Below are positions 6,763 through 19,893 of a DNA stretch of 33,061 bases, in pieces. Numbering within the stretch: position 1 is the stretch's first letter; the number at the start of each line of letters is the position of its first letter. Made by a program: the position numbers and the translations under genes. The stretch is from Clostridiaceae bacterium (GTDB lineage Bacteria > Bacillota > Clostridia > DSM-8532), in assembly GCA_012520855.1 (NCBI GenBank), contig JAAYNO010000170.1, positions 1 to 33,061 of the forward strand. The letters are read 5' to 3'. The notes under the pieces were generated by a model that was not told where the DNA came from, did no database searches, and saw only the letters and a program-made list of their open reading frames with translations.

Positions 6763-7485
6763 ATGGAAACCAATCGCTTTTACCGGGAAAACATAAAAGC
6801 AAAAAATCTGGTATTTTTTCAGGCGTGTGTGGAACAGACCGATCTTTATATAGGAGCCGAAGTAAACCTGAAAGAAAAAGCGACTTCCTTTATAAGGGAA
6901 TACAGACAACAGCTTATTGACTATATAAAACGGCATCCTGAATTCCTTCACAGTCTGGTTCCAATTAAAGCCAAAGGTTTTGCACCACCCATTGCCGTTG
7001 ATATGTGCAATGCCTCAAGCCTGGCAGGTGTTGGTCCCATGGCTGCGGTAGCCGGAGCTATGTCCAAATTCGTCGGGTACAAACTTCTTGAGTTTACTGA
7101 TGAGGTCATAGTGGAGAATGGCGGAGATATATTAATAAAAAGCAATACTGAAAGAATTATAGGAGTCTATGCAGGGAATTCACCCTTAAGCGGGAAAATA
7201 GCTTTGAAGGTCAGCAAGGATAAAACACCCTGCGGTATTTGCACTTCTTCGGGGACGGTTGGTCATTCCCTCAGCTTCGGCAAAGCTGATGCGGCTTTGG
7301 TAGTTCATCCGGATGCATCGGTTGCAGATGCATGTGCCACTGCATTGGGAAACAGCATAAAAGGAAGTGAGGATATTGAAGATGCACTTTCGAATATAAA
7401 TAAGGTTCCGGGGATTCGGGGAGCCCTGGTGATTGTTGGTGAGGCTTTTGGTGCAATAGGAGATATAGAGATCTGCAGGATATAA
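6763..7485 (+). CDS. UPF0280 family protein (COG2122, ApbE-like fold)
   Basis: This 240-residue protein belongs to UPF0280, a relative of the ApbE flavin transferase family. ENGGDI near residue 119, the CTSSGTVGHS stretch near 160-170, and GKADA with ADACATALGN near 174-200 resemble ApbE metal- and FAD-binding elements. It starts four bases after the ferredoxin-like gene, so it is the third member of the operon. Comparative studies link COG2122 with COG1900 and the NIL ferredoxin in sulfide-based homocysteine or cysteine synthesis. Its own chemistry is unproven. No rightward T-tract terminator follows it; the hairpin at 7508-7544 has its T-run on the other strand. Confidence 0.9.
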   Translation: METNRFYRENIKAKNLVFFQACVEQTDLYIGAEVNLKEKATSFIREYRQQLIDYIKRHPEFLHSLVPIKAKGFAPPIAVDMCNASSLAGVGPMAAVAGAMSKFVGYKLLEFTDEVIVENGGDILIKSNTERIIGVYAGNSPLSGKIALKVSKDKTPCGICTSSGTVGHSLSFGKADAALVVHPDASVADACATALGNSIKGSEDIEDALSNINKVPGIRGALVIVGEAFGAIGDIEICRI

Positions 7486-7499
7486 GGATAGTAAAATAT

Positions 7500-7544
7500 A
7501 AAAAAAAGGCCAAACCACCGGGGGGTTGGATATTAGTCTGGCCT
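7500..7544 (-). terminator. Leftward intrinsic terminator
   Basis: On the minus strand, CCAACC pairs with GGTTTGG (one bulge), or AGGCCA pairs with TGGCCT, and the stem is followed at once by eight T (7507-7500). On the plus strand the hairpin is followed by GAAATATAT, so it is a poor rightward terminator. No annotated leftward gene needs it. Confidence 0.7.
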
Positions 7545-7607
7545 GAAATATATCTGTCGCCTATATTATCTTATTACGTTGATGCGGTAAAGAATTACCC
7601 TAAAATC
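7500..7607 (-). ncRNA. Candidate small RNA with C-rich loop
   Basis: Reading leftward, a strong promoter (7614-7642) should start transcription near 7607, and an intrinsic terminator ends it at 7500. The RNA would be about 105 bases. Near its 5' end GGTAA-TTCT-TTACC can form a short hairpin. Its 3' end is the terminator stem, whose loop carries a run of six C (7520-7525), a feature of Gram-positive regulatory RNAs that pair with ribosome binding sites. No ORF with a start and ribosome binding site is seen in it. It does not match an RNA family I recognise. Existence is inferred from promoter and terminator only. Confidence 0.5.
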
Positions 7608-7613
7608 AAAAAA

Positions 7614-7642
7614 ATTAAATACTTGCAAAAGCTGCTTGTCAA
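7614..7642 (-). promoter_or_regulatory. Leftward promoter of the candidate small RNA
   Basis: On the minus strand, a perfect -35 TTGACA (7642-7637), a 17-base spacer and TTTAAT (7619-7614) form a near-consensus sigma-A promoter. It points away from proB toward the leftward terminator at 7500. Confidence 0.65.
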
Positions 7643-7756
7643 AACAGTTTCACGGAGCAGAAAAAATTAATCGCAAAAAACGCATAAGCCAGATATTACC
7701 CGTGTCGAAATAAAATGAAATAAGTAAGGTTATTAAAAATCAATAAAGGAGGAACC

Positions 7757-7864
7757 GTGCCCTGCATTTCTGTGATGATGCTTAATACGAAAACAGGGGT
7801 AAGGGATATTTATGGAAAACCAATACAGATCAAGATTGAAAGAAGCACAAAGAATTGTTGTTAA
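7757..7864 (+). CDS. Possible 35-codon leader ORF overlapping proB
   Basis: A very strong site AAAGGAGG (7746-7752 region) stands four bases before GTG at 7757, which opens a 35-codon frame ending in TAA at 7862-7864, inside proB in another frame. The peptide would start MPCISVMMLNTKTG and end in CC. The proB ATG at 7812 has a weaker GGGGTAAGGG site. This could be a leader peptide coupling translation to proB, or a chance ORF. There is no similarity evidence. Confidence 0.25.
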   Translation: MPCISVMMLNTKTGVRDIYGKPIQIKIERSTKNCC

Positions 7865-8633
7865 GGTCGGAACATCAACGCTGACCCATGATAACGGCAA
7901 GATGAACTTTAGCAGGATGGATCGTTTAGCCATGGTATTGTCGGAGCTTATGAACGAAGACAGAGAAATCATCCTGGTTTCTTCAGGATCGATAGGGATA
8001 GGAATGGGCAAGTTCAGCTTCAAGAGGCGTCCTGCAGGCATGGGGATGAAACAGGCTTTAGCAGCAATAGGGCAATGTGAGCTGATGAATATATACAGCC
8101 GCCTTTTTGCTACATATAATCAGAATGTGGCCCAGATGCTTTTAACCAAGCATGATATTAACGATGACATCAAAAAAATAAATGTCATGAATACATTTAA
8201 AAGTCTTTTCGATCTGGGAGTCATTCCTATTGTCAATGAAAATGACTCTGTTTCGGTGGATGAAATAAAATCTCTTTCAATGTTCGGAGATAACGACACT
8301 TTATCTGCTGTTGTCGCAAAGCTGGTAGGAGCAGATTTGCTTATCATATTATCGGACATAGATGGGTTTTATGATTCCAACCCGAAGGAAAACAAGGAGT
8401 GCAGGCTGATATCGATTGTGGAGAAAATAGATGATTCGATAAAAAAATGCGCCGGAAGTTCAGGAACAAAAAGAGGTACCGGGGGTATGATTACCAAGCT
8501 TAACGCCGCAGAGATTGTGACCGAAGCGGGAACAGACATGATCATAGCAAATGGGACTGATCCTTTGATAATAATGAATATAATTAATGGTGATGAGATC
8601 GGCACTCTGTTTTTAGGAAAGCGCAAATCATAA
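7812..8633 (+). CDS. proB: Glutamate 5-kinase (ProB), short form
   Basis: ProB phosphorylates glutamate to gamma-glutamyl phosphate, the first step of proline synthesis. The 273 residues form one amino-acid-kinase domain: RIVVKVGTSTL at 14-24 binds phosphate, VSSGSIGIGMG follows, NENDSVS contributes to the glutamate site, and GTGGMITKLNAA lies near 220-235. The C-terminal PUA domain of the 367-residue E. coli enzyme is absent, which is common in Clostridia. proA does not follow; the next gene is convergent hup. The ATG has a modest GGGGTAAGGG site, with the stronger site upstream serving a possible leader ORF. Confidence 0.95.
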   Translation: MENQYRSRLKEAQRIVVKVGTSTLTHDNGKMNFSRMDRLAMVLSELMNEDREIILVSSGSIGIGMGKFSFKRRPAGMGMKQALAAIGQCELMNIYSRLFATYNQNVAQMLLTKHDINDDIKKINVMNTFKSLFDLGVIPIVNENDSVSVDEIKSLSMFGDNDTLSAVVAKLVGADLLIILSDIDGFYDSNPKENKECRLISIVEKIDDSIKKCAGSSGTKRGTGGMITKLNAAEIVTEAGTDMIIANGTDPLIIMNIINGDEIGTLFLGKRKS

Positions 8634-8645
8634 TTGAAAATAAAA

Positions 8646-8678
8646 TTAAAGGGCGAAGCAAAGCACTTCGCCCTTTAA
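8646..8678. terminator. Bidirectional terminator between proB and hup
   Basis: A perfect 13-bp stem (TTAAAGGGCGAAG and its inverse) closes a seven-base loop. T-rich sequence follows on both strands (TTTAATGTTC rightward, TTTAATTTTATTTTC leftward). It lies between the ends of convergent proB and hup and should terminate both. Confidence 0.85.
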
Positions 8679-8715
8679 TGTTCATGCGGTTATTCTAAAC
8701 GCACCGGTTTAAAAC

Positions 8716-17514: not shown

Positions 17515-17700
17515 AAGCGTGCAAGGGGTGTTTCAACAATTTCCCCTTGACACACAGAATGCTTAATAGGGAATCGGGTGAGAAGCCCGGGCTGTCCCAG
17601 CAACCGTGAAGCTGACGAAATGGCGTATACCACTGCTTATTTGCGGGAAGGTGCCATGGAGGATGAAGCAAAGCCGGTAGACCTGCCGTGATGAAGTGTT
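17515..17700 (+). ncRNA. Adenosylcobalamin riboswitch
   Basis: The conserved core is clear: AATAGGGAATCGGGTGAGA, CCCGGGCTGTCCCAGCAACC, CCACTG, GCGGGAAGG and the B12 box GCCGGTAGACCTGCC (near 17675-17689). The order and spacing match the cobalamin riboswitch family. It precedes an intrinsic terminator and a corrinoid ABC importer, so high cobalamin should stop transcription. The outer boundaries (P1) are approximate. Confidence 0.95.
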
Positions 17701-17748
17701 TCTTCTGGGGTTTAAGAGTTTACTATGGGATAATTTACCATGTAATGC

Positions 17749-18816: not shown

Positions 18817-18828
18817 CCGGGGGGATAT

Positions 18829-19893
18829 ATGAAAACACCAAAGACTATAAGGAAAGGGATAGGACATACTAAAACCGTGTTGCTGACAGCTTTTGCAATA
18901 CTGCTTTTCTTTGTGGTCTTTTTTTTATCAATATTGATCGGGAGTATTGGCTTTTCACTTAATGAGACTATAAGGCTGACCCTAAATTACTTTTTTGGGC
19001 TCGGTGATACAAGTGATATCCCGGACAGTGTGATTACCATAATCCTTAGTGTCAGGCTGCCCAGGGTGATATTATCGGCTTTGGTGGGAGCTTCTCTTTC
19101 ATTGGCCGGAGCGGCAATGCAGGGGCTATTAAAGAATCCTCTTGCCGATGGTTCCACTCTTGGCATTACATCGGGAGGAGCTTTGGGAGCTGTTCTGTCA
19201 ATAGTTCTGGGTATAAACATCCCCTTTTTCCCTCAGGCGGGATTGGCTGTTATGAGTATATTGTCCTCTTTTCTGTCGCTTCTGTTTATATTGACTCTCA
19301 CCTATAAAATAGACCTTAACCTGTCCAACCAGACTATTATCCTGACAGGTGTCATCTTCTCCATGCTGGCGGGCAGTATAACCAGCCTGCTGGTTGCTTT
19401 GTCAGGCAGTAATCTAAGGCAGGTCGTATTTTGGTCGATGGGCTCGTTTTCTGGTAAAGGCTGGTCCCATGTAGCTCTTATGCTGCCGTTTTTCATAATC
19501 GGTGCTATTCCGCTGATTTCTTTAAGTCGTGAATTGAACGCGTTTTCCCTTGGGGAAGAACAGGCAGGGTTTATCGGGGTCAGTACAAAGAAGGTTAAAT
19601 TTGCAATTTTGATTCTTGTATCGATCCTGGTTGGCATATCTGTTGCGGTAGGAGGTACGATCGGATTTGTAGGGCTTGTTATTCCCCATATCACAAGATT
19701 TATAACAGGTCCTGACCATAAAAAATTGCTTCCGTTTTCGGTCGTTTTCGGTGCAAGTTTCCTGATGGGTACCGATCTTTTGTCGCGAACGGTATTAAGC
19801 CCTGCCGAGATCCCAATTGGTGTTGTAACATCACTGGTAGGCGGGATATTGTTTATATATATTTTTTATACAGGAATAAATTCCAGGAGATAG
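18829..19893 (+). CDS. Corrinoid/iron ABC transporter permease (FecCD/BtuC family)
   Basis: This 354-residue integral membrane protein is a FecCD-family permease, expected to have about ten membrane segments and to work as a dimer. Family motifs include RLPRVILSALVGASLSLAGAAMQG near 73-100, NPLADGSTLGITSGGALGAV near 103-122, and GTIGFVGLVIPHITRF near 275-290, the ATPase coupling region. CCGGGGGGATAT lies before the ATG. The 93-base gap from the binding protein holds three repeat-like elements. With the upstream riboswitch the likely substrate is a corrinoid. Confidence 0.93.
   Translation: MKTPKTIRKGIGHTKTVLLTAFAILLFFVVFFLSILIGSIGFSLNETIRLTLNYFFGLGDTSDIPDSVITIILSVRLPRVILSALVGASLSLAGAAMQGLLKNPLADGSTLGITSGGALGAVLSIVLGINIPFFPQAGLAVMSILSSFLSLLFILTLTYKIDLNLSNQTIILTGVIFSMLAGSITSLLVALSGSNLRQVVFWSMGSFSGKGWSHVALMLPFFIIGAIPLISLSRELNAFSLGEEQAGFIGVSTKKVKFAILILVSILVGISVAVGGTIGFVGLVIPHITRFITGPDHKKLLPFSVVFGASFLMGTDLLSRTVLSPAEIPIGVVTSLVGGILFIYIFYTGINSRR

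Follow-up and report, generated by a model that had tools for sequence, protein, structure and literature searches.

A conserved C-rich hairpin beside proB in two related genera of Clostridia, a candidate trans-acting small RNA for G-run ribosome-binding sites

RNAIII of Staphylococcus aureus, which is about 514 nt long and has many domains, carries C-rich loops that mask Shine-Dalgarno sequences. For staphylococcal IsrR, C-rich regions are likewise described as acting on Shine-Dalgarno regions (PMC9410917), and RnaC/S1022 of Bacillus subtilis is described as using a loop to pair with abrB and act on it (PMC4366234). In the open-licence literature, nothing was found on trans-acting RNAs in the group of Clostridia studied here, Thermoclostridium included, on a Clostridium small RNA with a C-rich loop acting at Shine-Dalgarno sequences, or on a GGGGGG Shine-Dalgarno sequence of abrB.

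The locus described here lies in a stretch of 33,061 nucleotides (the window) from a draft genome (2.33 Mb, 268 contigs) of a Clostridiaceae bacterium. A preliminary description had proposed a leftward C-rich small RNA gene between the homocysteine operon and proB, and comparison with related genomes strongly supports such a gene. The RNA appears to represent a conserved small RNA family that is apparently undescribed; it is tiny, single-copy and near-invariant, and a named strain, that of Thermoclostridium caenicola DSM 19027, is among its carriers.

Arrangement and conservation of the locus

The putative RNA gene is located in a gap between proB and a gene ending at 7485 that matches the PRK04334 model in a profile search and that we take to be UPF0280-like. 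Direct reading confirms that no coding gene lies between 7485 and 7812. On the minus strand, the letters read GGCCAGACTA-ATATCCAACCCCCCGG-TGGTTTGGCC, followed by eight T, and the strand, the terminator and the six-C loop had all been described correctly. The loop motif ACCCCCCGG is found inside the 16-nt loop of this near-invariant hairpin, and its conserved, exposed C-run (Table 1) is a feature of C-rich trans-acting Firmicute sRNAs. The putative stand-alone intergenic unit has a predicted promoter and terminator that are conserved in 17 of 17 aligned rows.

Table 1. Positions of predicted and observed features in the window.
Feature	Position	Strand	Remarks
Predicted small RNA, ~57 nt	7500..7556	-	start inferred 6-8 bases past the -10; end at the T-run
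Hairpin	7508..7543	-	stem 7543-7534 with 7517-7508 (10 bp); 16-nt loop 7533-7518 (ATATCCAACCCCCCGG)
Exposed C6, proposed seed	7520..7525	-	invariant in 17/17; mean predicted unpaired probability 0.91
Terminator U-tract, eight T	7500..7507	-	direct reading; retained in homologues
TTGACA-N17-TTTAAT, promoter of the preliminary description	7614..7642	-	TTGACA 7642-7637, TTTAAT 7619-7614; present, not conserved
Conserved promoter	7563..7591	-	-35 TTTACC 7591-7586, 17-base spacer, -10 TAATAT 7568-7563; 17/17 homologues
Inverted repeat GGTAATTCTTTACC across the -35	7586..7599	-	similar block in g1 rows, absent from g7
proB, glutamate 5-kinase, divergent neighbour	7812..8633	+	TIGR01027, E 4.8e-90, above cut-off
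Conserved block ATTACCC-GTGTCGAAA, near proB	7695..7710	+	includes TGTCGAA 7703-7709

The family comprises 32 genomes, including 14 from the genus of the window (g1) and 5 from a second genus (g7) to which T. caenicola belongs. The exact 18-mer ACCCCCCGGTGGTTTGGC was detected in 12 of the 14 g1 genomes and in all five g7 genomes, and in none of the 13 genomes of the five other genera. Chance is far from explaining the hairpin, as 17 of the 32 genomes carry the 18-mer exactly, once each and with the same hairpin and T-run around it. BLAST searches with a 171-base query found the element in 12 of the 14 g1 genomes, with the best agreement over the hairpin. In G005, a g1 genome without an exact match, the contig with the element breaks off within the C-run (L146, G005:C23), and G013, which is 82% complete, yielded neither the element nor proB. 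The contig end in G005 suggests that the hairpin may break assemblies and conceal more copies. In G021, one of the 13 genomes from other genera, there is a match with two mismatches (ACCCGCCGGTGGTTTCGC), and covariance model R1 finds nothing there.

The covariance model was built from the 17 rows and recovers positions 7559-7500 of the window at E 2.3e-17, as it must by construction, the window itself being one of the rows. Searches across the order (33 genomes) and in 391 Clostridia genomes gave nothing else convincing; 20 of the 391 pass with model R1 at E 0.001, and the five outside the family are weak (E 2.8e-5 to 3.3e-4). The exact core occurs in 17 records of a genome-contig collection, 16 of them from the same taxa, mostly bins titled Clostridiaceae bacterium together with T. 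caenicola DSM 19027; the other, from an Enterobacterales bin, falls within a coding region and was taken as chance. Viral contigs contain no copy of the exact core. A sister C-loop terminator was also sought in the genomes that lack the RNA, where a pattern search gave 35 rows in 12 of 13 genomes, and folding of 20 loci revealed no terminator with a C6 loop shared between relatives.

Mean identity between g1 and g7 is 89% in the hairpin and 58% in the promoter stretch, whereas the flanks and the 5′ part of the RNA itself are only 24-31% identical, which is about the random level. Purifying selection thus appears to be confined to two pieces, the promoter and the hairpin. A similar GGCCAAACC stem does occur elsewhere, as in G005 at L049, a match set aside because it is an ordinary terminator without the C-run, and the element could in principle be merely a strong, conserved terminator that stops transcripts arriving leftward or antisense from the side of proB. 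However, an invariant ACCCCCCGG loop would be superfluous in a terminator, the flanks diverge around a loop that is kept, the promoter just upstream is also conserved, and the element was kept in a genome that has lost proB (G007). We therefore regard this alternative as very improbable.

In the stem, all 170 pair cells in the 17 sequences are standard and 7 of the 10 pairs are invariant, with the remaining three varying as GC/GU/AU, GU/AU and UG/CG. Covariation over the 17 rows does not exceed that of shuffles because the stem, like the loop, is nearly frozen. The single-sequence fold of the 109-nt RNA originally supposed is unremarkable (z -1.3; 17 of 200 shuffles do equally well), and, as judged from the sequences, the case for the hairpin is one of conservation and not of energy. 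Four g1 species are predicted to have a longer RNA of 87-91 nt with an extra A+T hairpin in front. The stem varies hardly more than the loop, which goes beyond the needs of simple base pairing and would be expected if the hairpin bound a protein, as an RNA sponge or decoy with the C-loop as the protein site, but the invariant core of the loop is a plain C-run, a usual seed of Firmicute sRNAs (PMC9410917), and a protein-binding role is considered improbable.

The TTGACA-17-TTTAAT promoter exists as the preliminary description had stated, but relatives do not keep it. TTGACA is present at that place in the window only, the nearest relative having TAGACA and the other relatives unrelated letters, so that of the features expected to persist in relatives the C-run and the terminator are conserved and the named promoter is not. 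The conserved promoter is weaker and lies approximately 50 bases nearer the hairpin. Its -35 reads TTTAC[C/A] or TTTGCC, its -10 is TAATAT, TATNAT or a poorer box (TAAACT, one row), and the spacer is 17 bases in 15 rows and 18 in two; as these 17 rows themselves served for fitting the pattern by eye, the count of 17/17 is descriptive. From this promoter the start would fall near 7556, and the predicted length of ~57 nt (7556-7500) replaces the 100-110 bases, with the hairpin ~105 bases past the promoter, that had been proposed. An RNA of ~105 nt from the TTGACA promoter is rejected because that promoter is not conserved. Judged by eye, the spacing does not fit a SigH promoter. The automated scan lists neither the TTGACA promoter nor the hairpin, as its -10 rule requires A at position 2 and its terminator loop is limited to 8 or fewer. 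The inverted repeat across the -35 is a possible operator.

In 16 of the 17 genomes with the full element, proB is divergent to the RNA gene on the same contig and a few hundred bases away. In the other, G007, the RNA is retained without proB, hence the RNA is not simply a component of the control of proB. The 3′ side is variable, with the UPF0280/homocysteine operon, an HD-domain-like gene (named by eye) or others, and the emphasis previously placed on the homocysteine operon has to be transferred to proB as the constant neighbour. A cis element of proB (T-box, riboswitch or other known type) was rejected, as the unit runs away from proB and matches no known family.

Several other elements were seen nearby. 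The automated scan lists no plus-strand terminator behind the homocysteine operon (window 7485-7560, +), and read-through from this operon would give an RNA antisense to the entire small RNA. A strong symmetrical hairpin at 8645-8679, between proB and the HU gene, is probably a two-way terminator. The conserved block near proB may serve proB instead of the RNA, and its TGTCGAA is a Spo0A-box-like word. GGGTAAT occurs twice in g1 intergenic regions, ~100 bases apart, one copy overlapping the -35 of the RNA (as GGTAA-N4-TTACC) and the other preceding proB, and the two (7586-7599 and 7695-7710) are perhaps sites of one regulator.

G-run ribosome-binding sites and AbrB paralogues

The best explanation is, on balance, a trans-acting C-rich sRNA of ~57 nt that masks G-run Shine-Dalgarno sequences. 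The RNA would be made leftward from its own sigma-A-like promoter, and leftward transcription is highly probable. The terminator hairpin would double as the recognition element, with the 16-nt loop presenting ACCCCCC, the core of the pairing with GGGGGG(U). It is rather likely that the C-loop pairs with ribosome-binding sites that hold a G-run; ACCCCCC would pair with runs of at least 5 G in Shine-Dalgarno sequences and block ribosome binding. A specific target set is proposed, in which the mRNAs of AbrB1 and AbrB2, AbrB-type growth-phase regulators, would be under the RNA and AbrB3 would escape; AbrB1 and AbrB2 as the main targets is a tentative assignment, with the odds somewhat against it.

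The sequence GGGGGG-N3-11-ATG is found at 38 places in the genome of the window versus 21 in a reversed control, and at 72, 59 and 70 sites in G010, G028 and G031, respectively. Such sites are thus far from rare, a point against the proposed targeting. In the window's genome, G010, G028 and part of G031, 88 ORFs of 40 aa or more with GGGGGG located 3-11 bases before ATG were read, a sample that covers ATG starts and G6 sites, without GTG/TTG starts and G5 sites, and is incomplete for every relative. Clustering revealed one orthologous group common to both genera, an AbrB-family regulator. A dehydrogenase pair from G010 and G028 was weak (31% identity) and was not counted as orthologous.

Genes of the window's own genome account for 25 of the 88 rows and include, as named by eye, a ZIP-like transporter, acetate kinase, ClpX, a metal ABC permease and a FecCD-like permease (18819). 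Together with the presence of G6 at AbrB1 in genomes without the RNA, this number would suit an sRNA whose targets are other mRNAs, with a broad, species-dependent set of G-run ribosome-binding sites in which AbrB is incidental. However, only AbrB recurs in both genera, within a sample of ATG starts and G6 sites that is incomplete for each relative, and we consider the broad set rather unlikely. The FecCD-like permease gene (by eye; 18819-18831, +) lies behind CCGGGGGG, an 8-base complement of CCCCCCGG in the RNA, and is a possible second target inside the window; its site is downstream of a cobalamin riboswitch (17531-17704). Antisense pairing to one long target was rejected, as there is no extended complement, and the only GGGGGGTT(N)GGA in the window's own genome is the RNA gene itself.

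The AbrB paralogues differ in distribution. With the TIGR01439 model for the AbrB domain (cut-off 28.3), AbrB1 scores 35.0 bits and AbrB2 27.6 bits, just under the cut-off. In a family search, AbrB2 (79-95% identity) was detected in 14/14 g1 and 5/5 g7 genomes, including a partial copy in G011 at 89%, and in none of the 13 other family genomes, where the best matches are 63-68% identical and G021 has none. AbrB1 is in nearly all genomes, and AbrB3 was found at ~50%.

Among the readable g1 and g7 genomes, in which G013 is counted for AbrB1 and AbrB2 although the RNA was not found there, AbrB1 ribosome-binding sites have G6-G8 in 18 of 18 and AbrB2 sites have G5-G8 in 18 of 18 (G6 or more in 13). 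AbrB1 also has G6 or G7 in 12 of 12 relatives without the RNA, so its G-run is older than the RNA or independent of it. AbrB3 sites have G5-G7 in 11/11 genomes lacking the RNA, and no run longer than G3 in any of the 15 counted g1 and g7 genomes; this count leaves out one g7 row (G028, start MRTTGYV, GGGAGG site) that is outside the counting pattern, and the sites in these two genera are of GGAGG or GGGAGG type. In the sRNA genomes, mean duplex energies between loop and Shine-Dalgarno, which ignore mRNA folding, are -18.5 for AbrB1, -16.5 for AbrB2 and -9.2 for AbrB3, and those for 33 window ORFs have a mean of -8.6 (sd 4.1, lowest -19.9). The pattern suits an RNA that controls two abrB genes while the third escaped, but does not prove it.

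GGGGGGTT-N2-9-ATG occurs 69 times versus 43 in reversed controls in the 19 g1 and g7 genomes (G013 included), and 91 versus 24 times in the 13 others (Fisher 0.005). Depletion where the RNA exists was given little weight, as it is confounded by kinship and base composition. In a proB tree, all sRNA genomes are on one side of a well-supported split, and every contrast between genomes with and without the RNA is thus one evolutionary event, so Fisher values are not independent evidence.

Spo0A-box-like words

The Spo0A-box-like word TGNCRAA was found in the abrB1 leader (TGNCRAA/TGTCRAA) of 10 of 12 relatives without the RNA (L323-L328, L330-L334, L420), where it stands at -41 to -49 relative to the start codon, and in the abrB1 leader of none of the 18 genomes from the two sRNA genera (L335-L352). 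Upstream of the hairpin, TGNCRAA is present in 15 of 17 rows at varying places, in most cases 95-215 bases away from the loop core; two g7 rows lack it, and in a further two rows it is doubtful. As the places differ, Spo0A control of the RNA itself was not retained on its own and is kept only within a wider reading, a rewired sporulation or transition switch. In the ancestor of the two genera, the Spo0A site in the abrB1 leader would have been lost and AbrB2 and the C-loop RNA gained; abrB1 and abrB2 would have kept the G-run, abrB3 would have lost it, and control of AbrB would have moved from DNA to an RNA with Spo0A-box-like words upstream. This scenario is speculative and doubtful. If it is true, transcriptional control was replaced by RNA control, and the replacement can be placed on one branch of the tree.

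Comparison with described small RNAs

Membership of RsaE/RoxS or other sRNA families described in Rfam is not indicated, as there is no covariance-model match. Rfam searches gave no match on the element at gathering level, and none at E up to 5 for the window locus and three homologues; with E up to 10 allowed, the one match was a chance-level one to a fungal snoRNA (E 3.8), at 7596-7692 and off the hairpin. The sole Rfam match in the window is the cobalamin riboswitch.

RNAIII is a multi-domain RNA whereas the present RNA is almost only a hairpin, and both have C-rich loops. IsrR and RsaE/RoxS resemble the present RNA in an exposed C-run that is proposed to pair with G-rich Shine-Dalgarno sequences, but they belong to another lineage (Staphylococcus, Bacillus), and the present RNA is only ~57 nt and without an Rfam match. 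IsrR also has its own promoter and terminator and three C-rich regions before a separate terminator (PMC9410917), whereas the present RNA has a single C-loop placed in the terminator hairpin. RnaC/S1022 is described as dependent on SigD and sits between yrhK and cypB (PMC4366234), while the present promoter reads as a weak sigma-A type and the RNA lies beside proB, the comparison being one of promoter and locus. RnaC/S1022 is also described as pairing with abrB from the ribosome-binding site to +19, most strongly inside the coding sequence (PMC4366234), whereas for the RNA described here pairing is proposed with the G-run of the Shine-Dalgarno sequence.
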